The notes under the pieces were generated by a model. It did no database searches, was not told where the DNA came from, and saw only the letters and a list, made by a program, of their open reading frames with translations. Below, piece by piece: positions 7,679-52,575 of a stretch of DNA of 64,000 nt. The position numbers and the translations under genes are program-made. Source of the stretch: Planctomycetota bacterium (GTDB lineage: Bacteria; Planctomycetota; Phycisphaerae; Phycisphaerales; UBA1924); the NCBI GenBank assembly GCA_024280755.1, contig JAJRPN010000036.1, positions 1-64,000 on the forward strand, given 5' to 3'. Position 1 is the stretch's first letter; every line of letters begins with the position of its first letter.

Positions 7679-7817
7679 ACTGCGCTGAATTGGGCATATA
7701 AGGCATGAATTCGGTGGGTTTTGGGCACAGATTGCGCTCGATTGGTGAGAAGTGGGAGGGCGAGGGGAATCGTTGTAAAGAATTGTGAGATAAGGAGCTG
7801 AATTGTTGCCCTTGCAA

Positions 7818-7845
7818 TTTGACGACGCATTTATGCTGCCTATTA
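7818..7845 (+). promoter_or_regulatory. Candidate sigma70-type promoter of the 23S-5S unit
   Basis: TTGACG (7818-7823) and TATTAT (7840-7845) are separated by 16 bases and followed by a GC-rich discriminator (CTCCCCGCG). Transcription would begin near 7852, giving a leader of about 330 bases before mature 23S. No 16S or tRNA gene lies in that leader. The stretch 7680-7817 holds nothing else I can identify. Confidence 0.55.
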
Positions 7846-8170
7846 TCTCCCCGCGTCCAAACGACGCAAACGAAACTTGGCCAGCTGGCCTGACCAAGAT
7901 TCAGCATCTTTGACAAGTGGATTACGACGAGCGGAACTCAGATGACCGTGCTTCAAAGGAGGCGCGGGAATGGCTTTTACGAGCTGTTCATCAGGCTGAG
8001 TTCGGCAAATATACTAACTGAGAAATTCTCAAGATGCGTCTGAAATGGTGCTTGTTTGAATCGCTTTCCTTCACGGGATGATTCAAGCAGGTCGATAGAC
8101 CTTGCCGGCAGGCAAGGGAGGTCGTAAGAGATGTTCGGAATGTTGTTGATTGCTGTTTTATACAGAGGAT

Positions 8171-32308: not shown

Positions 32309-33271
32309 ATGGTCTCTGCAAAACAAACAACACCAATCTGCCCCAAGTGCGGCTACGACCAGCGCGGCGAGATCGCGACTTGGGAATCGGTGTGCCCGGT
32401 GGAGGGGCGTTGCCCAGAGTGTGGGCTTGGGTTTGCTTGGGGCGAGGTGTTTGATCCAGATCACTTTGAGCTGGCATGGTATATCGAAACGGTACGGACG
32501 AAACGACAGATGGTTTGGCGGACAATCCCAACGCTCTGGTTTTTGTTTGTGCCGAGTTGGTATTGGCGCGAGGTGAATGTGCAGACGCGGTTTCGGTTTT
32601 GGGCGATTGTGCGATGGCTTTGTTTCCTGACGGTTTGCCTTCATGCATTGAGTTCGATTCTGGTTGCGATGGGGAACTGGACAGAGAATTGGCAATGGCG
32701 ATATGGCTCATTCAATTTGTTCTATTCTTCGTATGGAATCCGAGGCGTAGGGTGGGAGATTTTTAATGGGTTCGCGGCTCCGTTCTTTGAGGCTTCTTTC
32801 TCTTCAGCAGGCGGATTTACAATTGGAGTCATGGATTCTCGCTACCACGAGCCTTTGCACGGTGTTCGGGTGCTTGGTGGCTACTTTGGGTATATAGCGA
32901 CTTGGGCGGTGGTCCTGCTTTTGGTCATGCGTTTTCGCAAAGAAGTAAAGCTTGAGAGGTCGCATGTGCTTCGTGCATTTTTACTGAGTCTATTAGCGGT
33001 ATTGGCTGCCTTCGAGACTCAGCGTGCGTTTACAGGGTTGAATGCGTACTGGGATGGTTACGGCGACATCATCTGGGTGGTGGGCATTCCGATGATCATC
33101 AATATATTGATATTCATCTGGATTCAGTGGTTCTGGATTGCAGCGATTCATATTGGCTGGAGGATTCGTCCGGGTTGGCCCATCACGATTTTGGGGATGC
33201 TTGCATCTTTCGTTGCAGTTGCAGTCCTCTTTGTAAGCACAATCGTGTTCATGTATTTATCTGCATCATGA
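32309..33271 (+). CDS. Zinc-ribbon polytopic membrane protein, tandem paralogue 1
   Basis: A 320-residue protein. A cytoplasmic four-Cys ribbon ([11 protein letters not shown], then [12 protein letters not shown]) is followed by a short linker (DPDHFELAWYIETV), an amphipathic stretch, and about five membrane helices from residue 75 on. First of four adjacent genes of this architecture (to 36254). Its first 100 bases after the start are almost identical to those of paralogues 2 and 4, whereas the remainder differs strongly. The Arg/Trp-rich segment after the ribbon (WRTIPTLWFLFVPSWYWREV) is a family feature. Function unknown. Confidence 0.7.
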   Translation: MVSAKQTTPICPKCGYDQRGEIATWESVCPVEGRCPECGLGFAWGEVFDPDHFELAWYIETVRTKRQMVWRTIPTLWFLFVPSWYWREVNVQTRFRFWAIVRWLCFLTVCLHALSSILVAMGNWTENWQWRYGSFNLFYSSYGIRGVGWEIFNGFAAPFFEASFSSAGGFTIGVMDSRYHEPLHGVRVLGGYFGYIATWAVVLLLVMRFRKEVKLERSHVLRAFLLSLLAVLAAFETQRAFTGLNAYWDGYGDIIWVVGIPMIINILIFIWIQWFWIAAIHIGWRIRPGWPITILGMLASFVAVAVLFVSTIVFMYLSAS

Positions 33272-33294: not shown

Positions 33295-34257
33295 ATGGAA
33301 CAGGCGAAACACACACCAATCTGCCCCAAGTGCGGCTACGACCAACGCGGCGAGATCGCGACTTGGGAATCGGTGTGTCCGGTTGAGGGGCGGTGTCCGG
33401 AGTGTGGGCTTGGGTTTGCGTGGCGGGATATCTTTGATCCGGTGCGTATGGAGCTTGGGTGGAATGTCGAGCATGCCCATTCGCTTTGGGAGATGTTTAA
33501 ACGAACGCCGAGGACATTGCTTCGGCTGATGATTCCATATTTTTATTGGCGGTCGGTCGGGGTCGAGACACCGATTCGGCTTTGGGTGTTGGTGCGCTGG
33601 CAGGTCTTGTTCTCGCTGGTGCTTCACTTGCTGGTGTCGATACCGTATGGCATGGGTATTTGGAACCGATCGAGCATCCAGGCCTATGGATCACTCGGTG
33701 AGTTGTTTAATCAAACGGGGTGGAAAGGCTTGTTGGTTCCGTTTGTGAACGCAATCGCGTATCCTTGGGTGAGTTTGGAAATTAGTTATAAAAACAATAG
33801 TTTCAGCATTTGGTATCCGGCATCTCAAGGGGGAGGACTCTCGAGCCTATTCGGGCCGGTGTTTTTGTTGATGGGGATGGTGTTGCTGTGGGCGATCGTG
33901 ATGCTTGCGATTCCAGTGACTCGGCGCCAAGCGAAGCTTCGCGCGAGGCATGTTGTGCGGGCGGCTTTGATCAGTGGGCTGGCGATGCTCTTTGCCTACC
34001 AAGGCTCGCGGCTCGCAGAGGGAATCGATGAGTGGACGCGTGTTGGATTAATGCTCAACAATATATATCAAGGGCTCTTTGGCGCAGTGGTGATGCCGGC
34101 GTTGGTGCTTTGGTTGATGATGTTCTGGTGGTTCGCGGTGATCACGGGCTGGAAGGTGCGTCCTTGCAGTGCGATCATTGTGCTGGGTACTGTTGCGTCG
34201 CTGCTTGGCGGGGTGGTGCTTTTGTATGTCGCTTCGATGTTGTTTGGGTGGTATTGA
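33295..34257 (+). CDS. Zinc-ribbon polytopic membrane protein, tandem paralogue 2
   Basis: A 320-residue protein with the same plan as paralogue 1: [31 protein letters not shown], then an amphipathic segment (LLRLMIPYFYWRSVGVE) and about five membrane helices. The ATG at 33295 follows AGGAG by 5 bases, which fixes this start against the longer upstream frame overlapping paralogue 1. The stop is immediately followed by the ATG of paralogue 3. The conserved ribbon is probably cytoplasmic and the membrane part carries the variable function. Confidence 0.7.
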   Translation: MEQAKHTPICPKCGYDQRGEIATWESVCPVEGRCPECGLGFAWRDIFDPVRMELGWNVEHAHSLWEMFKRTPRTLLRLMIPYFYWRSVGVETPIRLWVLVRWQVLFSLVLHLLVSIPYGMGIWNRSSIQAYGSLGELFNQTGWKGLLVPFVNAIAYPWVSLEISYKNNSFSIWYPASQGGGLSSLFGPVFLLMGMVLLWAIVMLAIPVTRRQAKLRARHVVRAALISGLAMLFAYQGSRLAEGIDEWTRVGLMLNNIYQGLFGAVVMPALVLWLMMFWWFAVITGWKVRPCSAIIVLGTVASLLGGVVLLYVASMLFGWY

Positions 34258-39378: not shown

Positions 39379-39615
39379 CTAGGGCGTGTCTGACGACTCA
39401 TTCCCCATACAAAGGACGCTCTTTTTTCGCCTCCCCCGGGCTTCCGGGGGAGGTGGCTGCGCAGCAGACGGAGGGGGTCTTAAGAGCTGTTTTTGCGATT
39501 AAAACAAAAGGAAACACAAAGCAAGACCCCCTCCGCCTCACTTCGTTCGGCACCTCCCCCGGAAGCCCGGGGGAGGCGAATAGTTGAAAAAAATGAGCCG
39601 TCAGACACCGCCTAG
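39379..39615. mobile_element. MITE-like element with terminal inverted repeats and CTAG duplication
   Basis: The termini GGCGTGTCTGACGACTCATT (39383-39402) and AATGAGCCGTCAGACACCGC (39592-39611) are inverted copies with 17 of 20 positions paired. Both are flanked by CTAG (39379-39382 and 39612-39615), a plausible 4-bp target duplication. The interior contains a family A palindrome, with CCCCCGGGCTTCCGGGGGAGG at its outer arm. No transposase frame is present, so movement would need an enzyme in trans. The insertion ends two bases from the rarD stop codon. Confidence 0.7.
39428..39577. repeat. Palindromic intergenic repeat, family A, copy 2 (inside the MITE-like element)
   Basis: Left arm CTCCCCCGGGCTTCCGGG, then GGAGGTGGCTGCGCAGCAGA with its GCTGCGCAGC hairpin tip, then GACGGAGGGGG. 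The right arm is the inverted counterpart but with a different tip (TCACTTCGTTCGG). The centre is AT-rich. It fits the family A layout of conserved arms and exchangeable hairpin tips. Confidence 0.8.
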
Positions 39616-40792: not shown

Positions 40793-40980
40793 CTAGGGCG
40801 TGTCTGACGACTCATTCTCCATACAAGGACGCTCTCTTTTCGCCTCCCCCGGGCTTCCGGGGGAGGTGGCTGCGCAGCAGACGGAGGGGGTTCTTCCCGG
40901 AGTTCAGAGCACTCATGTATGCTCGAAGACACCCCTCCGTCGGCTTTGCCGACACCTCCCCGCGGGGCGCAGGGAGGGAA
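40793..40980. mobile_element. Second, right-truncated copy of the MITE-like element, with family A repeat copy 3
   Basis: The first 100 bases (CTAG, then GGCGTGTCTGACGACTCATT, and on through the outer arm, GGTGGCTGCGCAGCAGACGG) repeat 39379-39475 with only a few changes, in the same orientation. The right part is different: it ends with GACACCTCCCCGCGGGGCG from another family A subtype and has no right terminal repeat. It was therefore truncated or rebuilt by recombination. It lies just before rimO. Confidence 0.7.
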
Positions 40981-41027
40981 AAGAACAGAGCACCATGCGT
41001 TGCTTTTCGTGCATATGATTCGCTCCT

Positions 41028-42725
41028 ATGCCTACCGATACAGATCAAACCCAATCCGAAACCATCGAAACCATCTCATTCGTGAGTCTTGGGTGCCCCA
41101 AGAACCTGGTCGACTCTGAGAAGATGCTCGGGCTGTTGGCTGCCGACGGGTTGATGCCGGTTTCTGCCGAGATTATCGAAGACCAAGAACATGATGACCT
41201 TTCGGTGTCAGGCAGTGAACAAGACGCCTCGGCTGCTGAGGGTCGGGTCACGCCAGCCGACGCGGTGGTGATTAATACTTGCGGCTTCCTTGAAGCCTCG
41301 AAAGAAGAATCGCTGGGGGTGATCGCCGAAGCGGTGAAGCTCAAAGAGGAAGGCAAGATCAAACGCGTGGTCGTCGCCGGGTGCTTGGTGCAGAGGCACC
41401 GGGCCAAGATGTTCGATTGGGCGCCGGGGATTGATTCGATGGTGGGGGTGTTCGATCGCGAGCACATTATTGAAGCCGTGCGAGGCGTGAAGAGCGATCG
41501 CGAGACGCTCGGGGATGCACCCAAGTATTGGATCAACGCCAATGCGATTACCAGCGCAGATTCCCAAGGCATGAACACCGTGGGTCTCACTGTCGCCGGT
41601 AAAGACGGCAAAGGTATTGGGTACTTTGAATCTGACAACGCCCGCTTGCGATTAACCCCTCGCCATTATTCATACCTGCGCATTTCTGAAGGCTGCAACC
41701 AGAACTGTGCGTTCTGTACGATCCCGTCGATCCGAGGCAAGATGCGATCGAAGCCTGAAAACCGAATCATCGAAGAAGCCCGCGAACTCATGCGCGATGG
41801 CGTGTTCGAAATGCTCATGATCGGGCAAGATACGACGAGTTATGGCGATGACATCGGTGTTGGTTTATCACAGGTCGAAGGTGCCGACAAGTTCCGCGCC
41901 GGGTTGCCAAAGCTGCTCCGGTCGCTCTCTGACGCGATGAGCGAAGAGATCGGGCGAGGCTGGCTGCGGATGATGTACGCGTATCCCACCTACTTTAGCG
42001 ATGAGATCATCGACGCCTTCGCCGAGGTCGCCGATCGTGGGAACCTGTTGCCCTACTTGGATATCCCGCTCCAGCATGGCTCTGACAAGGTGCTTGAGCT
42101 GATGCGTCGCAATGTGACGAGTGCCCACCAGACCGAACTGTGCCATAAGCTCCGCGATCGGATCCCCGGCATGGCCATCCGCACGACCTTCATTACCGGG
42201 TTCCCCGGCGAGACCGATTCGGATCATCAACAGCTTCTTGATTTCATCGAAGAAGTGCAGTTCGATGCGGTCGGATGTTTTCAGTATTCCAAAGAACCCG
42301 GCACCGTCGCAGGGCGCATGGAAGAAGATCCAAAGCTTTTGGTGCCCAAAGAGGTCAAACAACAACGCCACGACGAGATCATGGCCCTCCAACAACAGAT
42401 CGCATTCGACCAGGCCGAGTTCGTCGCGTCCCAGTTTGATCCAACGAAACCAACCGAGACCGGGGCGCAGTTTGATGTGCTCATCGACAAATCCACCGGC
42501 AACCAGGTCGAAGCAACCCCGGGGGTCTCCGATGGAGGCACGCTCTACGCGGGGAGAACCTACTTCCAAGCACCACAGATCGACGCGACCACCCATGTCA
42601 TCGCCAAGAACAAGCTCGCTGCTGGCGAGTTGGTGCGATGCACCATCGTTGCCAGCGATGGCTACGACCTGATCGCTCGTCCGGTCGAGGAACTCGAACG
42701 CAAGGTTTCGTTGAACATCATCTAG
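41028..42725 (+). CDS. rimO: Ribosomal protein S12 methylthiotransferase RimO, with two insertions
   Basis: Radical SAM enzyme that adds a methylthio group to the conserved Asp of ribosomal protein S12. The UPF0004 domain has FVSLGCPKNLVDSEKMLG, INTCGFLEASKEE and VVVAGCLVQRH (three Cys for the auxiliary cluster). The radical SAM domain has RISEGCNQNCAFCTIPSIRG with CxxxCxxC. A TRAM domain ends the chain. At 565 residues it is about 120 longer than E. coli RimO, because of an acidic insertion at about residues 45-75 and another at about 160-205. The last 53 bases are duplicated 2.4 kb downstream at 45058, just before the GNAT gene. Confidence 0.95.
   Translation: MPTDTDQTQSETIETISFVSLGCPKNLVDSEKMLGLLAADGLMPVSAEIIEDQEHDDLSVSGSEQDASAAEGRVTPADAVVINTCGFLEASKEESLGVIAEAVKLKEEGKIKRVVVAGCLVQRHRAKMFDWAPGIDSMVGVFDREHIIEAVRGVKSDRETLGDAPKYWINANAITSADSQGMNTVGLTVAGKDGKGIGYFESDNARLRLTPRHYSYLRISEGCNQNCAFCTIPSIRGKMRSKPENRIIEEARELMRDGVFEMLMIGQDTTSYGDDIGVGLSQVEGADKFRAGLPKLLRSLSDAMSEEIGRGWLRMMYAYPTYFSDEIIDAFAEVADRGNLLPYLDIPLQHGSDKVLELMRRNVTSAHQTELCHKLRDRIPGMAIRTTFITGFPGETDSDHQQLLDFIEEVQFDAVGCFQYSKEPGTVAGRMEEDPKLLVPKEVKQQRHDEIMALQQQIAFDQAEFVASQFDPTKPTETGAQFDVLIDKSTGNQVEATPGVSDGGTLYAGRTYFQAPQIDATTHVIAKNKLAAGELVRCTIVASDGYDLIARPVEELERKVSLNII
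42669..42721 (+). repeat. 53-bp direct repeat, left copy (3' end of rimO)
   Basis: These bases encode the last codons of rimO (LIARPVEELERKVSLNI). They recur at 45058-45110 with one mismatch (C versus T at the 48th position). The two copies bound a block of three minus-strand genes. The layout resembles the duplicated gene 3' ends made by site-specific integration, though no integrase is present. Confidence 0.95.
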
Positions 42726-42730
42726 ATTTG

Positions 42731-43513
42731 TTAAATATCTCTTCCCAATATCCCATTGGGCGTTGTTCCAAAGGTAAAAGGCGACCATATTGGGTATCGG
42801 TAGACTGGGCGTGTGGCTTCTTTCTCATATATCTGATCAACATGCCCATCAATAAACCATACCGAGCCGGGCTGGGGCGATTGCCAATAGGCAAGGTCGC
42901 CAACAGGGAGCCCAGGTTCATGAATGCCGCGCCATCCATGCCATACAAAGAGTTCGAAGACGCCTGCCTTGGAAGAAGGATATCGAGTGGAGGACAATCT
43001 TTGAACTTGTGCGCCAAGCTGTCTTGAGTATGTGTTGAAATCAACATCTGGTGAAAGATAGTCAGGGTCGATATAGCCCGATGATGTGAGGATGTAATCT
43101 GGGGCAGCGATGTTTTCATACTCTTCTGGATGCCATTGGTTCGCTGGGCAGTACATGAACTCTGCATCCGAGTTGATACCCGCGTAGCTTTGCCAGTTTT
43201 CGCTTTCGAAAGTCCCAAAGATTTGATAGCTGTAATGTGCCCACTGGTCTGGGTTCGCGTTGGCAACGGATGTTGGGCCGAGCCATGTCGGGAACGAGTC
43301 TCGATTGTCTGTAGCGTAGAGTTGGACCAGGTTGCCCATGCTTCGGATATGCGTCATGCATTCGAGCTTTTGTCCCTTCTCGCGTACAGATCTTAATCCT
43401 GGAATTGCGATCCCTGCTAAGATCGCAATAATTGCAATCGAAACAAGGAGTTCGATCAATGTCACGCCTAGGCGGAGGGTGTGGGTTTTATGTTCAGCTT
43501 GACGAGTTGCCAT
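42731..43513 (-). CDS. Prepilin-leader protein (type II secretion/pseudopilin-like), DUF1559-like candidate
   Basis: A 260-residue protein with a prepilin N-terminal methylation segment (LGVTLIELLVSIAIIAILAGIAIPGL), processed after the Gly. The globular part starts with MTHIRSMGNLVQLYATDNRDSFP and ends with SVWFIDGHVDQIY, the WFxDGHV-type signature common in planctomycete exported prepilin-like proteins. The stop lies 5 bases from the convergent rimO stop. This is the innermost (rimO-proximal) gene of the island bounded by the 53-bp repeats, and it lies at the downstream end of a three-gene minus-strand run. GGGAAA precedes the ATG. Confidence 0.85.
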   Translation of the reverse strand: MATRQAEHKTHTLRLGVTLIELLVSIAIIAILAGIAIPGLRSVREKGQKLECMTHIRSMGNLVQLYATDNRDSFPTWLGPTSVANANPDQWAHYSYQIFGTFESENWQSYAGINSDAEFMYCPANQWHPEEYENIAAPDYILTSSGYIDPDYLSPDVDFNTYSRQLGAQVQRLSSTRYPSSKAGVFELFVWHGWRGIHEPGLPVGDLAYWQSPQPGSVWFIDGHVDQIYEKEATRPVYRYPIWSPFTFGTTPNGILGRDI

Positions 43514-43537
43514 ATATGCAGTTTCCCATTTGGGCGA

Positions 43538-44542
43538 TCAAGGCGATGATTTTGCTCTCAAGGCGAATGTTACACCCAAAGCGATTAAAATAAATACGCC
43601 ACCAAAGATAAGAACAGACGGTGCCCTGTTGAGTAGGTGTCTTAATCTGTTGGATTGTGTTCGTGGATTCGAGGCATGGTGGTCATCAGCAGGTGGCGGT
43701 GTATCGAGTTTGGATTCAGTTACAATCGGTTTGTGAACAGGTTTCTTTGGGCTAATACCTATTTTTTCTATAATTGCCGGCGGGCCTTCATAGATCCCAG
43801 TTTTGAGACCAGAAAAAGGGATTCGCATATGCCCTGTATACACATTTGTGGCCCCAATTTTATGAAAATCATCATACTCCCACCACAAAAGCAGGCTTTG
43901 ATCAGGGGCGAGGAGTTCGAGTTTACTGACAACCTGGTGCTCGGTTCCTGCTGGTGAGGTGTAAGTTTCTAGGTAGGCCTTGAGGTTGAGCGGGCTGAGG
44001 TAAATCGAGATTGAGCCGTCGGCAAGCGTGTTTGCAGTTTTAATAAGATCTGGATACTCAGCGAGCCAAACGCCTAAGAGGTACGGAGCTCGATAGGCGT
44101 GCTGTCCAACGACTTTTCGGAGTGATAGATCATCTCCTAAAGATTGAGTTCGGGTGGTTTTTAGCTTTCGTTCGACATGGTGACCCGTTGAGTCAATTTG
44201 ATATATCTTATCAAACATCATCGACCTAGTCGCATCAAGGGGGTTTTTCTGAGGCTCGGCGCGGGACTCGATAAGAACTTCGGTGGGCCAACTGAACTCG
44301 CATATCTCGCGGATTTCAAAGAACTCTACAAGGTTTCCCGCTGGATCATGTGCCTCATTTCCAACGAGCCATGTGATATGAGTCGATTTCAGTTTCTTCG
44401 TTGTATCAACCCAGTTTTGCAAAAGGTTGCTCGTGGAGGGCTGCCCCTGGGTGAAAGAGGCGATGAAGCACGAGCAGAGAAGGGTAACTAAACAGGTAGT
44501 CCGTAGAAGGCTTGAAGGAGTTGCAGCGAGAGTAAATGTCAT
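43538..44542 (-). CDS. Exported protein with C-terminal membrane anchor, unknown function
   Basis: A 334-residue protein. The N-terminal hydrophobic stretch (LLRTTCLVTLLCSCFIASF) is a signal peptide. The extracytoplasmic body is beta-rich, with STHITWLVGNEAHDPAGN and HQVVSKLELLAPDQSLLLWW. A Pro/Asn-rich linker and a C-terminal membrane helix (VLIFGGVFILIALGVTFALR) end with a short basic tail, as in surface-anchored proteins. The start at 44542 overlaps the previous stop (TAATG), so it is coupled with the Cys-rich gene. It lies within the repeat-bounded island and its DNA is AT-rich. No family recognised. Confidence 0.65.
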   Translation of the reverse strand: MTFTLAATPSSLLRTTCLVTLLCSCFIASFTQGQPSTSNLLQNWVDTTKKLKSTHITWLVGNEAHDPAGNLVEFFEIREICEFSWPTEVLIESRAEPQKNPLDATRSMMFDKIYQIDSTGHHVERKLKTTRTQSLGDDLSLRKVVGQHAYRAPYLLGVWLAEYPDLIKTANTLADGSISIYLSPLNLKAYLETYTSPAGTEHQVVSKLELLAPDQSLLLWWEYDDFHKIGATNVYTGHMRIPFSGLKTGIYEGPPAIIEKIGISPKKPVHKPIVTESKLDTPPPADDHHASNPRTQSNRLRHLLNRAPSVLIFGGVFILIALGVTFALRAKSSP

Positions 44543-44928
44543 TATTTTAATCCGCCATCGCAAGGTGTTGGGTTGGGGTAACCGGGTATTTGGGTAGTGA
44601 TCACATAGGGCATTTGGAGAGATCCGCCTTCGCATTGTTGTGTTTCATTATTCCAAGTGCCACCTACATAGTTCGCACAAACTTCCCAAAAATCATTCGA
44701 GGTGGTGCCGCAATCTTTGTACATGTCGCCATCTACACATTGATAAGATGTCAAACATTCTGTGTAGGTGCATGAACTCCCAGAACCCGAGTTTTCGGTC
44801 TGTTCCCAGCTCTCTTCAACGGCATAGTTGCAAATAGGCCTCTTGCCTATTCCAATTCCGGTTTGCGCAAGTGCAATGCCTGTAAATGAAAGGGCAAGTA
44901 TGGCAGTGATTGTGCGATTGAGTTTCAT
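44542..44928 (-). CDS. Small secreted Cys-rich protein
   Basis: A 128-residue protein with a signal peptide (ITAILALSFTGIALAQ). The mature part has eight cysteines (for example SCTYTECLTSYQCVDGDMYKDC), which suggests four disulfides, and many Ser, Thr, Asn and aromatic residues. I do not recognise a family; it could be an adhesin-like, toxin-like or receptor-like surface protein. AGGA lies 9 bases before the ATG. It is the first gene of the island's minus-strand run. Its upstream region has TTGACA followed by a nine-G tract, a possible variable promoter spacer. Confidence 0.65.
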   Translation of the reverse strand: MKLNRTITAILALSFTGIALAQTGIGIGKRPICNYAVEESWEQTENSGSGSSCTYTECLTSYQCVDGDMYKDCGTTSNDFWEVCANYVGGTWNNETQQCEGGSLQMPYVITTQIPGYPNPTPCDGGLK

Positions 44929-44975
44929 TTTGTTGTTCCTGTATTTGGTGTTCTATTGCAAATGGACATTGCAAC

Positions 44976-44999
44976 ACTGTACCCCCCCCCATCTGTCAA
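44976..44999 (-). promoter_or_regulatory. Candidate phase-variable promoter with a G9 tract in the spacer
   Basis: On the minus strand, a perfect -35 TTGACA (44999-44994) is followed by GAT, nine G (44990-44982) and TACAGT (44981-44976), a 4/6 match to the -10. The current spacing is 12, too short for good activity. Insertion of four or five G would make it 16-17. Homopolymer slippage would thus tune or switch transcription of the Cys-rich gene 48 bases downstream. Confidence 0.4.
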
Positions 45000-45057
45000 G
45001 TTCATGTTTGAATGGTGTGGAGAGAATTTTGATGAGCGAGTCGATAGATGACCTGAT

Positions 45058-45113
45058 CTGATCGCTCGTCCGGTCGAGGAACTCGAACGCAAGGTTTCGT
45101 TGAATATCATGTG
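45058..45113 (+). pseudogene. Remnant of a rimO 3' end (right copy of the 53-bp direct repeat)
   Basis: Reads LIARPVEELERKVSLNIM-stop in frame, a copy of the rimO C-terminus with ATC ATG TGA in place of ATC ATC TAG. Its TGA overlaps the GTG at 45111 of the GNAT gene as GTGA. This suggests that rimO once ended here, translationally coupled to the GNAT gene, before the island between 42722 and 45057 was inserted. 52 of 53 bases match the left copy at 42669-42721. Confidence 0.85.
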
Positions 45114-45116
45114 ATT

Positions 45117-45572
45117 ATGCAGATACACGAAGACGATCCAAGAAAGCCGGAGGTTTCGAGGTTGCTCAACGAGCACCTTGATGCGATGCGTTCGATCTCG
45201 CCGCCGGAGAGCAAGCACGCGTTGGATGTGGATGGGTTGTGCGTCCCTGAGATTGTTTTTTGGACCGCAAGGGATGAAGATCTGGTGCTTGGGTGCGGAG
45301 CATTGTGTGAGCTCGACTCAACGCACGGCGAGATCAAATCTATGCGTACGGCTCAATCCCATCTAAGAAAAGGCGTCGCCTCGAAGCTTCTCAAGCACAT
45401 CATCGAAGCCGCTCGATCGAGGGGGTATGCCCGGTTGAGCTTGGAAACGGGTTCGATGGAGGAGTTTGTTCCGGCGCGGGCGATGTACGCACGGTTTGGG
45501 TTTGAAGAGTGTGGGCCGTTCGGGGCGTATCGGGCTGATCCCAACAGCGTTTTTATGATGCTTGAGCTTTGA
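45117..45572 (+). CDS. GNAT-family N-acetyltransferase
   Basis: A 151-residue protein. The acetyl-CoA-binding segment is clear: SMRTAQSHLRKGVASKLLKH (motif A, RxxGxA-like with RKGVAS), then SRGYARLSLETGSMEEFVPA and ARAMYARFGFEECGPFG (motif B). The order resembles PaiA/YsnE-like proteins that act on amines or amino acids; the substrate is unknown. The ATG at 45117 is used; a GTG at 45111 overlaps the TGA of the rimO remnant and may be the ancestral start. It would now depend on a promoter within or before the remnant. Confidence 0.85.
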   Translation: MQIHEDDPRKPEVSRLLNEHLDAMRSISPPESKHALDVDGLCVPEIVFWTARDEDLVLGCGALCELDSTHGEIKSMRTAQSHLRKGVASKLLKHIIEAARSRGYARLSLETGSMEEFVPARAMYARFGFEECGPFGAYRADPNSVFMMLEL

Positions 45573-45695
45573 AAACTGAGTTGTAATCGAACTTTCTTTT
45601 CTGATGTATCTTGTGTGATTGGTGGGGGATGCAAGCGATCATGGCGGTTTTGGACGGTTTGTATTGAGTCGGTAGGGTTGATTCCCTAGTGATTG

Positions 45696-47339
45696 ATGTC
45701 TAAAACCCTGACCCGTTTTTCATTCCGAAATCTGTTTGGAGCCGATACTTTGATCATGGTCCGATCTGGTCATGTTGTGATGCTGTGCGCCCTCGTCTTG
45801 CTGACAATGGGTGTCGTGATGGTGCAATCCGCCGGGATGCAGGTGCGTCCATTGCAGGTCGATGCCGATCCGACGGCTGCTGCTGCGGTGTCTGGCGTGA
45901 CCGCCGAGTCTTTGCTGACCTCGCGGACAAGTATCTACTTAGTGATTGCGGTCCTGGCGATGGCGATCGCGTCGAGATTGCCCATCCGTAAGTTCGCCGA
46001 TCGGCTCGAACGCGTGGTCTGGTTCAAGCCCGGAGGCGATCTTGGGGTTTTGATCATCGGATCATTGATGCTCGTCGGGTTGCTCTCGTTGGTCTATGTG
46101 CCTGGGCTTGCCCGGGTGCAGAACGGATCTGGGCGATGGATCAATCTGCATATTCCAGGCTTGGAAAGCATTCAGCCATCAGAGATCGTGAAATGGTCGA
46201 TCATTGTGCTTGTCGCGTGGTACGCTGCTCGGCTGGGATCGTATCAAGAAAACAAACTCCGTAAGTTTTTTACCGGATTGCTGCCGGTGTGCTTGTGTGC
46301 TGGGGTGGTTGCTGGTGTTGTGGTGCTTGAGGATTTGGGCACCGGGGCATTGATGATCGCTGCGACGGGTGTGGTCTTGCTTGCTGCGGGTGCACGATGG
46401 ATTCACTTTGGGATGTTTATCCCTCCTGTGTTGATGAGCGTGGTGCTTGCGATCTTGGCTGCGCCCTATCGCAAAGATCGCATCGTCGCGTTTATGGATC
46501 CATACGCCGATCCATCGGGCACTGGATATCACCTGATCCAATCCATCGCCACCGTCGCAGGTGGCGGCGTGTTCGGACGCGGACTGGGCAACGGCTTACA
46601 AAAATTTGGATACCTCCCCGAAGATACGACCGATTTTCTGTTCGCCATCGTGAGCGAAGAACTCGGGCTCATCGGGGTGCTGATTGTTGTGTGTGCCTAC
46701 GCCGGGATCGCTTGGACCGGCACGAGCATCGCGATGCGTGAACGCTCGATGATGCTCAAGCTGATTACCCTTGGGGTCATCGCAACGATTTCGATGCAGG
46801 CATTGATTAACTTGGTGGTCGTCACCGGGCTTGGCCCGACCAAAGGCATCGCGCTGCCTTTGATGTCTTCGGGGGGAACCGGGTGGATCATGACCGCGTT
46901 CGCATTGGGCTTGGTTGTGTCGATTGATCGCACGCGTGAAAATGCCCGTGTGTATGTCGATGCGTTCGCGAGCGAGGACGAAGAACTTATCGCACTGCGG
47001 GCCCAGCGGGATTCAGAGATTGATGCTAAGCCGAGCTTTGCGGATCGTGCCGGGCTTTGGGGGGCATCGGTGATGCACACAGTTCGCGCTCCCGCTCAGC
47101 TTGTTCCGATTACGACTCCGCCAGCGATGCCTCAAGACTACAGCGCCTACGACGCGAATCCGATCGACGATGCCGAGATGGAAGAGCTGCTTGGCGGCTC
47201 GATCGCTTGGGAATCATCCGAACCAAAGACACCAATGAAGGTACAGATCATGGATCGGTTCCGATCAAAGCCCAAGCCGACACCAGATTCATACGAAGAA
47301 GCGGACGATCAGGACGAGCGGGCAGATTTGTTCTTATGA
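45696..47339 (+). CDS. ftsW: Peptidoglycan polymerase of the SEDS family, FtsW-like
   Basis: Polymerises lipid II during septal wall synthesis, with a class B PBP partner. About ten membrane helices are present. SEDS hallmarks are GSGRWINL, SIQPSEIVKWSIIVLVAW, DLGTGALM, FLFAIVSEELGLIG and GLGPTKGIALPLMSSGGTGW (FtsW/RodA consensus KGxxLPxxSxGG). Unlike most members it has a 120-residue soluble C-terminal tail after SIDRTREN, rich in Asp/Glu/Pro, and a long periplasmic insert after helix 1. A small hairpin (TAGGG/CCCTA, 45673-45688) sits just before the ATG. The stop overlaps murG by ATGA, and this pair is typical of division gene clusters. Confidence 0.92.
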   Translation: MSKTLTRFSFRNLFGADTLIMVRSGHVVMLCALVLLTMGVVMVQSAGMQVRPLQVDADPTAAAAVSGVTAESLLTSRTSIYLVIAVLAMAIASRLPIRKFADRLERVVWFKPGGDLGVLIIGSLMLVGLLSLVYVPGLARVQNGSGRWINLHIPGLESIQPSEIVKWSIIVLVAWYAARLGSYQENKLRKFFTGLLPVCLCAGVVAGVVVLEDLGTGALMIAATGVVLLAAGARWIHFGMFIPPVLMSVVLAILAAPYRKDRIVAFMDPYADPSGTGYHLIQSIATVAGGGVFGRGLGNGLQKFGYLPEDTTDFLFAIVSEELGLIGVLIVVCAYAGIAWTGTSIAMRERSMMLKLITLGVIATISMQALINLVVVTGLGPTKGIALPLMSSGGTGWIMTAFALGLVVSIDRTRENARVYVDAFASEDEELIALRAQRDSEIDAKPSFADRAGLWGASVMHTVRAPAQLVPITTPPAMPQDYSAYDANPIDDAEMEELLGGSIAWESSEPKTPMKVQIMDRFRSKPKPTPDSYEEADDQDERADLFL

Positions 47340-48478
47340 AACCAAGCCCAGAGCAAACCGGGCCAAGGGCGTTTGTCTTTGCGGGCGGTGGCACCGGCGG
47401 GCATATCTATCCTGCCCTTGCAATCATCGAACAACTCAAGGCGATTGATCCAGATGTTGATGTGCATATCTTGTGCTCGAGCCGGGCGATTGATACAGAG
47501 ATATTGAGCAAAGAACACATCGCGTTTTCGCCGATCGCTGCGATGCCGATCTCGACCAAGCCCAAAGGCTTAATCAAGTTTGTGACCAGTTGGGGCCCGA
47601 GCGTGCGGGCAACCAGAGATTGTTTGCAGAGCTTCAAGCAAACCCATGACTCGGTCGTGCTGGTTGCAATGGGCGGGTTTGTTGCAGCTCCAGCAGCCCG
47701 CGCCGGGCACGCTGAGAAGATCGCGGTGGTGCTGGTGAATCTCGACGCGGTGCCGGGCAAGGCCAATGTGTTGATTGCCAAGAAGGCGCGAGAAATCTAT
47801 ACCGCAGCATCGATCGTTGGCTTTGAATCATGGAAGCGTGTTCGCCCGATCGTTCGGTCTCAGGCCGACGGGTTGTGTCCTGCACAAGAGGCGCGAAAAT
47901 CGTTCGGGCTCGATGCCAACACCAACACCCTGCTCATCACCGGCGGCTCACAAGGTGCGCAATCAATCAACAACTTTGTGCGCACAATGGTTGAACAACA
48001 AGCTGAGGCTTTTGATGGGTGGCAGGTCATCCATCAGGTCGGTAACAAGCTAAGCGACGCCGAGATCGAAGCCATTCGATCGGTCTATGGTTCCGCCAAG
48101 ATCGGCGCATGGGTCGAGCCGTTTATTGATGACATGGGCATTGCATTATCAGCTGCAAGCGTCTCACTGGGGCGTTGCGGGGCCGGGACAGTCGCCGAGT
48201 GTTGGGCAGCCAAGCTGCCTTCGGTTTTCTTTCCTTATCCATTTCATGCGGACGAACACCAGAAGCACAATGCTCAGGTCTTGGTCGATGCCCGGTGTGC
48301 ATTGGTGTTGACCGATCTTGTCGATGCCGATCGGAACTTTGCCAAGCACAGCGACGCGTTTGCACAGGTGTTGGTGTCCCAAGCACATCGGCAAACAATG
48401 CAGGCGGGGTATGCAGATCTTGGATCACCCGATGGGGCAGAAGCAATCGCCAAAGAACTGATGTCCTTGCGCGGATGA
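47336..48478 (+). CDS. murG: UDP-N-acetylglucosamine:lipid I GlcNAc transferase
   Basis: Adds GlcNAc to lipid I to make lipid II on the inner face of the membrane. A GT-B fold enzyme of 380 residues. The N-terminal Gly loop is FAGGGTGGHIYPALAI, the second is LITGGSQGAQSINNF, and the donor site is SVSLGRCGAGTVAECWAAKLP followed by FPYPFHADEHQKHNA. All match MurG. The start at 47336 overlaps the ftsW stop (ATGA). With ftsW it indicates a peptidoglycan-making organism. It has no ribosome binding site of its own and probably relies on coupling. Confidence 0.95.
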   Translation: MKPSPEQTGPRAFVFAGGGTGGHIYPALAIIEQLKAIDPDVDVHILCSSRAIDTEILSKEHIAFSPIAAMPISTKPKGLIKFVTSWGPSVRATRDCLQSFKQTHDSVVLVAMGGFVAAPAARAGHAEKIAVVLVNLDAVPGKANVLIAKKAREIYTAASIVGFESWKRVRPIVRSQADGLCPAQEARKSFGLDANTNTLLITGGSQGAQSINNFVRTMVEQQAEAFDGWQVIHQVGNKLSDAEIEAIRSVYGSAKIGAWVEPFIDDMGIALSAASVSLGRCGAGTVAECWAAKLPSVFFPYPFHADEHQKHNAQVLVDARCALVLTDLVDADRNFAKHSDAFAQVLVSQAHRQTMQAGYADLGSPDGAEAIAKELMSLRG

Positions 48479-48616
48479 TTTCTGAAGATCGTTATTCGGA
48501 CGCAGTTCGATCGATGAAGCAGGAATATTCGAGTTTGGCTGGTTTTTGGGTGTTTTTGATGGCATGCGCGATACACTAGATGCGTGATATCACAAGAAAA
48601 CACACACAACTCGACA

Positions 48617-49159
48617 ATGCCCACGCAGGTTTGTATCCTTTGGCACGCAGCTGAAAGGTCTCCAGCAGATGCCTTGGTGCGTGCGTTGATCAATCGCGGA
48701 TTGTCGGTCACCCTCGCAACAAGCAAGCATGCGGTGTTTGCTGCTGCCTGTCAATGCGACCAATCGGCCAATCGGGTCGTGATTGTGCTTGATGAGCGAG
48801 AATCGCTTGTTGGTGTCGATCGTGTGCTCGACGGGCTTGAGCGATTTGGCCCGGGTGTGATTTGTTGGGAACATTGCCCTGGCGCGAACCCGCCGATGGT
48901 TCCGGTCGTACGAACAGTAGTGCCCAAGCCAAAGGTTCAGGTGCAGCAGGTGTGTGCAGATCCTGTCCCTGGGCGAGATATCCCCGCTGCCAAGCTTCGG
49001 CTTGTCAATGAGAACGAATCAATAGCAAACAAACCACCAGTGAAGTTGCTCAGGCCGATACCCAAGGGCGGCACAATCAGTTCGAGCGATGTGCTTGATG
49101 CCGACGAGCTTGATGCACTGCTCGCAGGCGAGATGGGTGAAGGCCGAAGAGGCAAGTAA
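48617..49159 (+). CDS. Unknown protein preceding the diguanylate cyclase
   Basis: A 180-residue protein. The first 100 residues look like a small alpha-beta domain: QVCILWHAAERSPADALVRALINRG, then VVIVLDERESLVGVDRVLDGLERFGP. This could be a receiver- or Rossmann-like fold without clear catalytic residues. A Pro/Val-rich linker (VPVVRTVVPKPKVQVQQV) leads to a C-terminal segment ending DVLDADELDALLAGEMGE, which resembles the short LSxxEIDALL-type peptides of flagellar and secretion proteins. It ends 6 bases before the GGDEF gene, so the two are probably co-transcribed. Start at ATG 48617; a GTG at 48584 is possible. Confidence 0.6.
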   Translation: MPTQVCILWHAAERSPADALVRALINRGLSVTLATSKHAVFAAACQCDQSANRVVIVLDERESLVGVDRVLDGLERFGPGVICWEHCPGANPPMVPVVRTVVPKPKVQVQQVCADPVPGRDIPAAKLRLVNENESIANKPPVKLLRPIPKGGTISSSDVLDADELDALLAGEMGEGRRGK

Positions 49160-49165
49160 GAGGAT

Positions 49166-50659
49166 ATGACAAGAGTGAGTTCAATCCCAAACCAACACGA
49201 AAACGACCAGCCTCATGACCAGCCGTCATGGCGCGTGATTCTTGTTGGGCGGACCGGGCTCGATCAGCTACTCCGGCGTGATGCTTCGATTGAGTTGATC
49301 CGGGCCAAAGACACCATCGATGCGATCGGCGAGCTTTCTGATCCGATCGATACTCTATCGCCTGCACAGGCTGCGGTTGTTGTTGCCGCGTCGATCGAGC
49401 CGAGCGATGACGAGCTTGTTGAGTTTATCGAGAGTTTACGATTAATCGATTCGCAGGTGCGTGTGCTTCGTGTTGGTTCGCAGCGAGCACCCTACGACGG
49501 GTGCATCGATGCGCAAGCAACGCGTGAAGAGATTCTCGAAGCGATCGAGCAGGCAGAGCCTATGGCTGAAGCGGTATCATTGCGGTTTGTTGAAGCTCCC
49601 CAAGCAGAAGCAGTTGTTGAAACAGTTGCTGAATCTGAAGTGGAACCCGAGCCAGAAACAGAACCCGAGATCGTGGTTGTCGCCAAGAACGAAGATTTCG
49701 AGCACAAAGCGCAGGAGTCTTTCGAGGAAGAATCTGATTTGCACAAGCAGGTGCTGATTGGCACCGAAGCGATCGACAAGCCAACATCAACAATGCAGCA
49801 GGCTCCATCAGCTGGGCCAAACGATGACCAAGCACTTGTCGAAGCAATGCTTGTAGGGCGATCGGTTCTTGAGATCGCTGTCGAACGAATCAACGCTCGG
49901 CTCGATCGTGATGATGTATCGTTCATGCCCGATGAAGAAGCGGTCGGCATGCCTGTGATGGTGGGGAACCAGATCGCGGGCAAGCTCGTTTGCAAAGATC
50001 AATCATGGGCGATGGGCGATGGTCACGAAGTATTAACCCAGCAGAGCCAATGGCTCGCCGGTTGGATCAAGCTTGAGATTCAACAAGCCGAGCTTCGCAA
50101 CGCTGCATTTACCGATTCACTCACTGGCGCATGGAACCGCCGATACTTCACGCGGTATCTCGATGCAGCGATTATCCAATCACGCATCGCGCGTCAGCCT
50201 TTGACCGTGATGTTGTTCGATATCGACGGATTCAAGCACTACAACGATACCTATGGGCATGCAGCGGGCGATGAGATCTTGGTCGAAACAGTCAAGCTGC
50301 TCAAATCGGTCATTCGGCCATCCGATCGTGTGTGTCGAGTTGGCGGCGACGAGTTTGCGGTGATCTTCTACGAGCCCAAAGGGCCAAGAGATTCAGAGAG
50401 CAAGCCGCTCGAATCGGTCTATCAGATCGCGACTCGTTTTCAGAGGCAGATCTGTTCGCATCGGTTCCCCAAGCTCGCTGGCGAAGCCCAAGGCACGCTG
50501 ACGGTTTCGGGCGGGTTGGCATCGTACCCGTGGGACGGGCACGATTCAGAGTCGTTGCTTGAGCAAGCCGATCAGCTCGCGATGGAATCCAAACGCAACG
50601 GCAAGAACGCCATGACCCTCGGGCCAGGCGCCGAATCAATCTGTAAAAACAAGTGTTGA
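49166..50659 (+). CDS. Diguanylate cyclase (GGDEF domain)
   Basis: A 497-residue soluble protein. An N-terminal alpha-beta domain (about 20-130) is followed by an acidic spacer (residues 150-200, rich in Glu, Val and Pro), a helical or GAF-like region (about 220-310), and a GGDEF domain (about 315-485). The domain has the usual start FTDSLTGAWNRRYF, FDIDGFKHYNDTYGHAAGD, and the active site RVGGDEFAVIF. An RxxD inhibitory site (RPSD) sits five residues before GGDEF, so product feedback is likely. It makes c-di-GMP, which in this context could regulate the envelope and polysaccharide systems seen in the window. The upstream gene may encode a partner. Confidence 0.9.
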   Translation: MTRVSSIPNQHENDQPHDQPSWRVILVGRTGLDQLLRRDASIELIRAKDTIDAIGELSDPIDTLSPAQAAVVVAASIEPSDDELVEFIESLRLIDSQVRVLRVGSQRAPYDGCIDAQATREEILEAIEQAEPMAEAVSLRFVEAPQAEAVVETVAESEVEPEPETEPEIVVVAKNEDFEHKAQESFEEESDLHKQVLIGTEAIDKPTSTMQQAPSAGPNDDQALVEAMLVGRSVLEIAVERINARLDRDDVSFMPDEEAVGMPVMVGNQIAGKLVCKDQSWAMGDGHEVLTQQSQWLAGWIKLEIQQAELRNAAFTDSLTGAWNRRYFTRYLDAAIIQSRIARQPLTVMLFDIDGFKHYNDTYGHAAGDEILVETVKLLKSVIRPSDRVCRVGGDEFAVIFYEPKGPRDSESKPLESVYQIATRFQRQICSHRFPKLAGEAQGTLTVSGGLASYPWDGHDSESLLEQADQLAMESKRNGKNAMTLGPGAESICKNKC

Positions 50660-50672
50660 TTGATTGTCATCC

Positions 50673-50774
50673 GGGTGCCACGGTTTGATCCGCGCAGCGG
50701 ACAAGCCGTGTCTTGGGTTGCGATCGTTCTGGCTGAAGACACGGCTTGCCGAAGACGGTCAAGCCATGGCACCC
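50673..50774. repeat. Imperfect palindromic repeat, family B, copy 2
   Basis: A 102-bp element from GGGTGCC to GGCACCC. The inner arms AAGCCGTGTCTT (50703-50714) and AAGACACGGCTT (50736-50747) are perfect 12-bp complements. The arms next to the ends carry GGTTTGATCCGC and ACGGTCAAGCCATGG. It lies between the diguanylate cyclase and HAD genes and has no coding content. The layout is like a MITE or a mobile hairpin. Confidence 0.8.
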
Positions 50775-50802
50775 ACTCGATTCCAAAGGTCTATGCTCTG
50801 CT

Positions 50803-51705
50803 ATGCCTGCTGCTCGTCATCCAGTCGATCTGATCGCTCTCGATCTCGACGGCACACTCATGGGCACCAACGAACTCGTCTCTCAAGCAAACATCGACGC
50901 GGTCTGCCGTGCCCGCGATGCCGGGATCACGGTTTTGGTGTGTACAGGTCGCGGGCTTGGTGAATCTGGCCGAGCGATGAAGGCGATCAATCAGCAAGAT
51001 CCGGTGATGGTCGCGGGCGGGTCGATTATCGCCGATCCGGTCTCAGGCGAAACGCTCCATCGGTTCACGATGTCACAACAAGTCGTCGCTTCGGCCACCG
51101 AGTTGTTCCACGAAGCAAACTGCCCTGCATTGATCATGAAAGATCCAACAGAGATCGGATATGACTATCTCGTTGTGCATTCCGATGACGAACATCCGAT
51201 CCATCCGATTACAAAGTGGTGGTTCGATGATCATCAGCTCAGTGTCAACTACGCCAAGCATGTGCATCACGACGAGCATCCTGAGCATACGGTGCGGGTG
51301 GGGGTGTGCGTCGAACAATCGGTATCGAATGCGATCTCGAAGAAGATTGGTGAGTTGCTCGGTGACGATGTGTGGCTGTACGATTTTCCGTGTGTGATGC
51401 CGGCAAATCATCGTGGCGAGGTGGTACATATCTTGGAGCTGTTCGCAGCCAAGATCAATAAATGGGCAGCCATCTCATGGTATTTGGATAGACACAATAT
51501 AGATCCTTCTCGCGTCGCGGCGATTGGAGATCAGGTCAACGATGTGCCCATGATCGAAGCGGCCGGCGTGGGGATCGCGATGGGCAATGCGATTGTAGAA
51601 GTTCAGAATCACGCGAAATATACCACCGCCACCAACGACAACGACGGCGTTGCCCACGCGATCAACGCGATTCTCGATGGTAATCTCGCTGCGTTGAAAT
51701 CCTGA
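50803..51705 (+). CDS. HAD-superfamily phosphatase, Cof type
   Basis: A 300-residue HAD hydrolase of subfamily IIB. Motif I is LIALDLDGTLMG (nucleophile Asp and acid Asp), motif II is VLVCTGRGL, motif III the Lys near FAAKINKWAAI, and motif IV GDQVNDVPMIEAAG. Between motifs II and III lies the large C2-type cap of the Cof family. Substrates are usually sugar phosphates, FMN-like compounds or pyridoxal phosphate. The start is at 50803; the open frame upstream runs into the family B repeat and is excluded. It is followed by rsmA 18 bases later. Confidence 0.9.
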   Translation: MPAARHPVDLIALDLDGTLMGTNELVSQANIDAVCRARDAGITVLVCTGRGLGESGRAMKAINQQDPVMVAGGSIIADPVSGETLHRFTMSQQVVASATELFHEANCPALIMKDPTEIGYDYLVVHSDDEHPIHPITKWWFDDHQLSVNYAKHVHHDEHPEHTVRVGVCVEQSVSNAISKKIGELLGDDVWLYDFPCVMPANHRGEVVHILELFAAKINKWAAISWYLDRHNIDPSRVAAIGDQVNDVPMIEAAGVGIAMGNAIVEVQNHAKYTTATNDNDGVAHAINAILDGNLAALKS

Positions 51706-51723
51706 TCGACTACTATACAAGCC

Positions 51724-52575
51724 ATGCAAACCCTCACCCAAATTCGAGATCTTCTGGCGATGGCCGGGCACGAACCCAAGAAAGCCCTCGGCCAAAACTT
51801 CTTGATCGATCACAACCTGATCCGCAAACTCGTCGATGCATCGGGTGTGCAGGCTGGTGATTTGGTCCTTGAGATCGGGCCCGGCACGGGTGCACTCACC
51901 GTCGAACTGCTCGAACGCGGGTGCATTGTCATCGCAGGGGAACTCGATAAAGATTTTGTTCGTGTGCTTGGTGAAACACTCGCTCAAGAATACCCCGATA
52001 CCCTGACCATCATCGAAGGCGATTGCCTCGCCAACAAACGCGCGATGCACGAAGATCTTGTTGATGCGATCGCAGGGCGTGAGTTCAAGATGGTGGCGAA
52101 CCTGCCCTATCACGCCGCGACGCCTTTGATGCTCGCGTTGATGACCCAGCATCCCAACTGTTTGGGTATGTACACGACGATCCAGCACGAGGTGGTCGAA
52201 CGGTTTGGTGCATCGCACAACTCGAAGGTCTATGGCACAATATCAATCATCGCCCAGTGTTTGGGCGAGGTCGGCACGATCGCCAAGTTGTCGCCGGGGT
52301 GTTTTTGGCCTCAACCCAGCGTCGGCAGCGCGATGATGCGTTGGGATCGCTCGATGGAAGCGATCGCGAACGAAGAGTCTGATTGGTGGGCAACGATGGC
52401 CGACATGACACAGTCGTTGTTCCAGCGAAGGCGTAAGAAGCTCGCCGGGAGCGTGAAGGTGATGACCAAGACCCCGATCGAGTGGCCTGAGGGTGTGTCA
52501 AGCGATGCCCGGATCGATGCGCTCATGCCAATGCAGGTCAATGCGCTGTGTAAGGCGATCGCCAACGCATATTGA
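51724..52575 (+). CDS. rsmA: 16S rRNA dimethyladenosine transferase
   Basis: Dimethylates two adjacent adenines in the 3' terminal helix of 16S rRNA during late 30S assembly. The 283-residue length is typical. Motif X is KALGQNFLID, motif I is LEIGPGTGALTVELLERG, motif II AGELDKDF, motif III EGDCLA and motif IV ANLPYHAATPLM (NLPY). The C-terminal small domain (PQPSVGSAMMRWDR and onward) is present. It follows the HAD gene closely, and a repeat separates it from the APH-like gene. Confidence 0.95.
   Translation: MQTLTQIRDLLAMAGHEPKKALGQNFLIDHNLIRKLVDASGVQAGDLVLEIGPGTGALTVELLERGCIVIAGELDKDFVRVLGETLAQEYPDTLTIIEGDCLANKRAMHEDLVDAIAGREFKMVANLPYHAATPLMLALMTQHPNCLGMYTTIQHEVVERFGASHNSKVYGTISIIAQCLGEVGTIAKLSPGCFWPQPSVGSAMMRWDRSMEAIANEESDWWATMADMTQSLFQRRRKKLAGSVKVMTKTPIEWPEGVSSDARIDALMPMQVNALCKAIANAY

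Follow-up and report, generated by a model that had tools for sequence, protein, structure and literature searches.

A three-gene envelope module behind rimO in a planctomycete, probably inserted with a long target duplication

Results

The duplicated rimO end and the inserted block

A stretch of 64,000 nucleotides from a Planctomycetota bacterium (contig JAJRPN010000036.1; hereafter the window) was found to carry three minus-strand genes between rimO and a GNAT acetyltransferase gene, with a second copy of the rimO 3′ end beyond them. I consider it probable (roughly 0.7), from comparison of the sequences, that a horizontally acquired three-gene envelope module was inserted here recently by insertion with long target duplication. 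Since the last ~56 bp of rimO stand on both sides of the module, rimO kept a complete end and the GNAT gene kept its start. What is new here is that the block is one member of a family of three-gene modules occurring at many places, with long target duplications at three of them.

The direct repeat (42666-42721 and 45055-45110, plus strand) is 56 nt in length with 54 of the 56 positions identical (96%; E = 3e-19 by self-BLAST). Its longest exact run is 47 bp (42669-42715 = 45058-45104), and the mismatches are at repeat positions 3 and 51. The original prediction, made from the window alone, had described a 53-bp repeat with one change; this was right, and the alignment extends 3 bases leftward with one further change. 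The two flanks score 103, against a maximum of 32 among the 506 pairs of the cross-locus control. As a second control, 6000 random segments of 1.9-2.45 kb were drawn from the window and related loci; four of them scored 100 or more, three of these coming from the single locus L087 (genomes are labelled G, contigs C, and loci L). One control segment, L066 928-3262, has strongly alike flanks with a score of 298.

Between the two copies lies a block of 2333 bp (42722-45054), whose GC content of 47.5% is the lowest of the window at the 2.3-kb scale (window mean, 53.6%). The expected three opposite-strand, AT-richer genes are indeed present there on the minus strand. The 47-bp identical core is surrounded by deviations on the inner sides, that is, at the 3′ end of the left copy and the 5′ end of the right copy. 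The left copy ends with AACATCATCTAG, and the right copy begins with GATC. At the inner edge of the right copy (45048-45058, plus strand), compared by eye with the rimO genes of relatives, a degenerate rimO-like ATGACCTGATC is followed by a 5-bp tandem repeat. An assembly artefact is an unlikely source of the repeat, because the copies differ and the module sits inside a 64-kb stretch of one contig.

The rimO-GNAT junction in related genomes

The family-level comparison set comprised 163 genomes, and the same-genus subset comprised 20 genomes, several of them only 56-88% complete. In one relative, G009 (L004, L048, and L132), the RimO and GNAT proteins are 94% and 90% identical to those of the window, and the GNAT gene lies directly behind rimO; the block is missing at the abutting junction of L048 and L132. 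The G009 junction, ...AATATCATGTGATCATGCAG, agrees with the 3′ part of the window's right copy up to the GNAT gene, and the left copy differs from both toward its inner (3′) end. Thus, the right copy is native on its 3′ side and the left copy on its 5′ side. Since rimO and the GNAT gene abut in G009 as they do at the right copy, the 2.33-kb block appears to have been inserted in the window lineage. A 2333-bp insertion in this lineage is the simplest reading of the history.

In a DNA search with the rimO end, two copies were found in the window's genome and one strong match (E 1e-12 or better) in each of 14 of the 20 same-genus genomes, with no second rimO end in those 14 among the matches listed; in the other six, the DNA query missed the known end itself and they were not judged. 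The block genes, encoding the prepilin-like, LolA-fold, and Cys-rich proteins, were found in none of the 20 same-genus genomes. Six of these genomes, and the window's own genome at one further place, have weaker, partial prepilin matches, which were taken for ordinary prepilins. An earlier adjacency of rimO and GNAT followed by insertion of a cargo-only block, as had been proposed, is therefore supported by the abutting G009 junction and by the absence of the block genes from the same-genus genomes. The proposed comparison of this junction revealed no relative carrying the three genes between rimO and the GNAT gene without a repeat.

Among the 15 same-genus rimO loci examined (L003-L017), five have a GNAT gene near rimO, and it abuts rimO in G009 only. 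A GNAT remnant is kept at the same spot behind rimO in L034 (G014): at 7758-8110, about 25 bases of the GNAT start are followed by an unrelated open reading frame (no Pfam match) running off the contig. The GNAT gene is thus replaced there, so that the spot behind rimO has been hit by another rearrangement. In L035, L036, and L037, short GC-rich palindromic repeats were seen by eye between rimO and the GNAT gene; thus, the junction collects small insertions too. A search for other genomes with different cargo at the same rimO site had also been proposed. No such case emerged: besides the lack of a second rimO end among the matches listed for the 14 same-genus genomes judged, a self-comparison of 80 rimO-centred loci and the window (1.01 Mb) gave only the window's pair as a repeat spanning a rimO end, and rimO as a repeated hotspot with other cargo was rejected. 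The repeats inspected in L072, L074, L078, and L082, and at window positions 39379 and 32325, appear tandem, dispersed, or paralogous; L033, L035, L037, and L041 have repeats as well.

The gene at 41028-42725 (plus strand), which I take to be rimO, encoding the ribosomal protein S12 methylthiotransferase, matches Pfam Radical_SAM, UPF0004, and TRAM_2; a match was found in 54 of 61 genomes including its own. The left copy contains or adjoins the last codons and TAG stop of this gene. The GNAT gene (45111-45572, plus strand; PF00583) had been predicted to be coupled to rimO by a GTGA overlap. The adjacency stands, but the start is probably ATG 45117 rather than GTG 45111, which overlaps the TGA, because L034 has TAA (no GTGA) and keeps the ATG, and because the ATG of the L003 GNAT gene aligns by eye.

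Target duplications at other copies of the module

The module prepilin was found in at least 19 of the 163 family genomes, at 28 or more places; the count is a lower bound, as the best 15 first-look candidates per genome were scored (the best 8 in another search). The LolA-fold gene adjoins the prepilin gene at 24 of the 28 places found. Flank duplication was compared at the 23 places with both flanks readable; G296:C71, G190:C1, and G026 were excluded by contig ends, and two G344 places because the LolA-fold neighbour was not found. Long flank duplications were found in three of the 23 copies: L248 (score 187), L195 (134), and the window (103). The three targets are unrelated genes, namely rimO (56 bp), yajQ (86 bp exact), and tspO/rhodanese (97 + 39 bp), and the duplications differ in length and sequence from one event to another. 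In all three cases the host genes keep complete ends.

The module of L248 (G311) starts ~19 bp behind a gene with PF04461, presumably yajQ, and 86 bp near the gene end are repeated exactly beyond the module; a gapped alignment of the two yajQ copies covers 119 columns, stop included. The yajQ end is present twice in G311 and once in each of the seven relatives (7/7). The DNA 236-485 bp beyond the far copy of L248 was found at the matching distance behind yajQ in G118 (81%), and no matching DNA was found behind yajQ in the other six of the seven relatives. In L195 (G118), the module is flanked by tspO and a rhodanese gene, which are convergent and both have their 3′ ends duplicated (97 bp at 88% and 39 bp at 82%). 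The rhodanese end is present twice in G118. In G311, G214, and G190, tspO and the rhodanese gene lie next to each other with no module between them; G093, G235, and G257 have the rhodanese gene with no tspO beside it. Marginal flank similarity in L172, L193, L200, L247, and L171 was not counted; the alike gene ends of L200, whose genes I take to be dockerin-like, were read as belonging to paralogous genes.

The three module proteins

The prepilin-like protein (42731-43513, minus strand; 260 aa) is encoded by a gene whose stop codon is 5 bp from the rimO stop. It has the N-terminal cleavage/methylation motif of prepilins (PF07963, 23.7 bits with a cut-off of 21.2; TIGR02532, 24.4 bits with a cut-off of 16.3) and a C-terminal GRD motif that is conserved in an 18-sequence alignment. 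Most copies of the module have a conserved prepilin motif, TT..G.RGRD, near the stop codon; it may be a tail for sorting or docking. No conserved DNA was seen by eye beyond the stops of 24 prepilin and 22 LolA-fold genes; GRD is conserved as a protein motif, and the idea that the element has ends recognisable as DNA was rejected.

The next gene (43538-44542, minus strand) encodes an exported protein of 334 aa with the half-open beta-barrel that defines the LolA superfamily, an N-terminal helix (9-31), and a predicted C-terminal helix (299-331), which may anchor the protein in the membrane. None of 19 LolA-fold members gave a Pfam match at E 0.01. The third gene (44542-44928, minus strand) encodes an exported-looking Cys-rich protein of 128 aa with 8 Cys, which has relatives in other module copies and no family match in Pfam or NCBIfam; its stop codon overlaps the start of the LolA-fold gene by one base (TAATG). 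The recurrent unit thus encodes a prepilin-like protein, an exported protein rich in Cys, and a LolA-fold protein bearing a C-terminal helix. These proteins would act at the cell envelope: the host's prepilin peptidase would process the prepilin, and the ligand of the LolA-fold protein would be a lipid or hydrophobic partner.

In agreement with the original prediction, which had noted the absence of an integrase from the block, none of the three genes has a recombinase match in Pfam, NCBIfam, or PHROGs. No methyltransferase or restriction enzyme match was obtained for the three proteins, and PADLOC gave no match to anti-phage defence.

Distribution of the module

Most of the module sites differ, and both flanks are common only within two pairs of copies (g7 and g15). 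The GC content is lower in the module than in the surrounding locus in all 17 other copies (17/17). Two related modules at different sites, L193 and L195, are alike inside the module only. G235 has four diverged module copies at four sites in one genome (L193, L194, L196, and L197), hinting at a diversifying multi-copy system. At G344:C44:27770-28528, a prepilin relative has one in-frame TGA, and its LolA-fold neighbour was not found; it is possibly a decayed module.

Six of the 28 places are in one neighbourhood, rimO-ftsW-murG-GGDEF-HAD-ksgA: those of the window, G146, G140, and G257, and two in G296. In the window, the rest of this conserved neighbourhood (45693-52575, plus strand) holds ftsW, murG, an unnamed open reading frame, a GGDEF gene, a HAD hydrolase gene, and ksgA, several of these names being my presumption; the modules of other genomes are also found here. 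In G257, the module begins 3 bp behind rimO. The prepilin tree groups the window, G146, and G296:C156 in one clade (support 100/98) and places G140 and G257 elsewhere (G296:C71 is not in the tree). Thus, three lineages probably reached the rimO-ksgA neighbourhood, which suggests that homology of the shared neighbouring genes played some part in the spread.

Other origins and other repeats of the window

A transposon or insertion sequence does not fit: none of the 17 inverted pairs of at least 14 bases in 41000-47000 lies at both block edges, and the duplication is 56 bp, not 2-14 bp. A viral origin was rejected; the viral contigs have no prepilin relative, PHROGs gave no recombinase match (the phage collection itself was not searched), and of the six window proteins tested, none is encoded in the four viral stretches that share 17 bases with the repeat. 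A plasmid origin found no support either, as neither of the two proteins searched, the LolA-fold protein and the prepilin, had a plasmid match.

The window has two further direct repeats. One of 100 bp (97%; 39379-39478 and 40793-40891) stands on both sides of a transporter gene which I take to be rarD-like. The second half of this repeat is a GC-rich element dispersed through the window in several partial copies, and the first 52 bp have two full copies only. The rarD-like gene was rejected as a second insertion case, since a gene of this kind precedes rimO in 10 of 17 relative loci and one half of the repeat is dispersed. The other repeat, of 134 bp (90%; 32325-32457 and 33307-33440), may be one coding stretch shared by two neighbouring genes.

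Discussion

The features of an insertion with long target duplication were found at the three duplicated sites: the block is absent from the corresponding junction of relatives (weaker at yajQ, 1/7), the target is present twice when occupied and once when empty, and the duplication is variable. Such an event would need no dedicated recombinase. Most likely, incoming DNA would be captured, and copying or joining would re-enter the target upstream of its exit point, either by a template switch or by one-sided homology with an illegitimate joint. The duplicated gene end could later serve as portable homology for exchange from strain to strain.

Several points weigh against this explanation. The movement itself was not observed. 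Past the exact core, rimO-like and yajQ-like sequence continues at the inner edges, where the similarity fades gradually, without a sharp stop, and small insertions (5 and 6 bp) occur. Such edges are not what simple target duplication predicts; they would fit an element that brought an imperfect copy of the gene end, so that homologous import or an att-like function of the gene end keeps some probability. Flank duplication was not seen in 20 of the 23 module copies, which are either older and decayed or show that most insertions arose otherwise. The concentration of 6 of the 28 places in one neighbourhood is not predicted by random capture. The supporting junctions are few: the GNAT gene abuts rimO in one relative, three of the six relatives with the rhodanese gene have no adjacent tspO, and the DNA behind yajQ was matched in one of seven.

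It may be asked whether the module arrived by ordinary homologous recombination through the rimO end, from a donor strain that already had it behind rimO. I regard this as rather unlikely, though deserving some weight. Other genera also have modules at rimO or in its vicinity (L202, 3 bp past its end; L173), the nearest module relatives of the window, L171 and L172, are in the same neighbourhood (tree support 100/98), and the final bases of the left copy, TAGATTTG, resemble TAGATCTG behind the rimO of G011. Another species as donor of the left inner edge was nevertheless rejected, as the best rimO end among the loci, that of G011, still differs at 7 of 30 sites; it is a lead only. Moreover, the 47-bp core is identical in both copies, whereas rimO of G009 differs at 4 of the 47 sites; the core therefore originated in this species or one very close to it. 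The module proteins of other genera are only 47-50% (prepilin) and 23-28% (LolA-fold) identical, and such an import leaves the first origin of the duplication unexplained. That the rimO 3′ end was first duplicated in tandem and the module inserted between the copies later, or that the assembly is wrong, is highly improbable. The repeat alone would be silent on the order of events, but the pattern occurs at three module copies with unrelated genes and is rare in random segments (4/6000), and copies that are not identical are no simple assembly duplicate.

Site-specific integration would make the repeats attL and attR sites, belonging to an element that enters at the 3′ ends of genes and whose integrase was lost or acts in trans, as in a CIME-type remnant. 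The position at a gene 3′ end, the restored end, and the foreign-like inner edges of both copies have this look, and the host genome has 10 places matching PF00589 (tyrosine recombinase), so that action in trans by some enzyme is possible. However, the module itself has no recombinase match, the repeats at rimO, yajQ, and tspO/rhodanese differ in sequence and length, which excludes a common att core, and only one rimO end is among the matches listed for each of the 14 same-genus genomes that could be judged. I therefore consider this explanation improbable. The site-specific element in the usual sense that had been envisaged in the original prediction was not borne out, given the quite different repeats of the other two repeat-flanked copies, the lack of a recombinase, and the many unrelated sites; an integrase with one fixed site does not fit the module. 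The alternatives that this prediction had offered, movement in trans or by homologous recombination, both retain some probability.

Insertion with long target duplication is preferred. A further possibility, speculative and on balance unlikely, is that the module is a non-autonomous mobile unit without a recombinase, able to land right behind stop codons and acquiring a copy of the host gene 3′ end, which would serve as an attachment site that needs no integrase. The two gene ends would then recombine by way of RecA and release the module as a circle with one gene end, able to re-enter the same gene in another cell without damage.

Several known systems resemble the module in part. CIME-type remnants and other islands bounded by attL and attR carry cargo between direct repeats, including a restored gene 3′ end, without an integrase of their own. 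The module is likewise flanked by repeats with a restored gene 3′ end and has no integrase of its own, but its three repeats share no core and no related integrase-bearing element was seen at these sites. The Verru_Chthon cassettes are described as repeated cassettes. Like them (TIGR02596 and TIGR02599), the module has a prepilin-like protein in a unit of several genes with several copies per genome; unlike in them, only the N-terminal motif matches, and the scores are far below the curated cut-offs (TIGR02596, 16 of 70 bits; TIGR02599, 12.2 of 256.5 bits). The LolA-fold protein differs from the lipoprotein carriers LolA and LolB in its predicted C-terminal helix, the lack of a Pfam sequence match, and its encoding in an accessory module.

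Insertion with long target duplication was reportedly described by Nobusato et al. in 2000 (Gene 259:99-108). Strain comparison in Helicobacter pylori is the setting in which it is reported for restriction-modification genes, and the passages available of the papers concerned name no transposase for the pattern (PMC1643837, PMC3031569, PMC4978471, PMC3154945). As in those passages, a block is inserted relative to a related genome, with a long direct target duplication that varies between events. The present case departs from what they describe in its prepilin-like/Cys-rich/LolA-fold cargo, in its planctomycete family, and in its three unrelated targets, and it is unlike a restriction-modification mobile unit in that no methyltransferase or restriction enzyme was matched in the cargo. 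Homology-facilitated illegitimate recombination, as far as the passages available describe it (PMC3240628, PMC5361080), would similarly put foreign genes behind a homologous anchor and displace the old downstream part; here the observed product is a duplication of the anchor's own end, and no donor fragment or uptake is shown. No publication on the prepilin/Cys-rich/LolA-fold module was found in the open-access literature, with subscription papers mostly outside this search.

The three cases with envelope cargo suggest that gene modules without a recombinase move more generally by insertion with long target duplication, and the sequenced relatives with and without the module make such recombinase-free movement testable. 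The module is a patchily distributed envelope system linking a LolA-fold protein, a prepilin, and a Cys-rich exported protein. If the duplicated gene end does act as an integrase-free attachment site, the module would spread and diversify a surface function across this planctomycete family.

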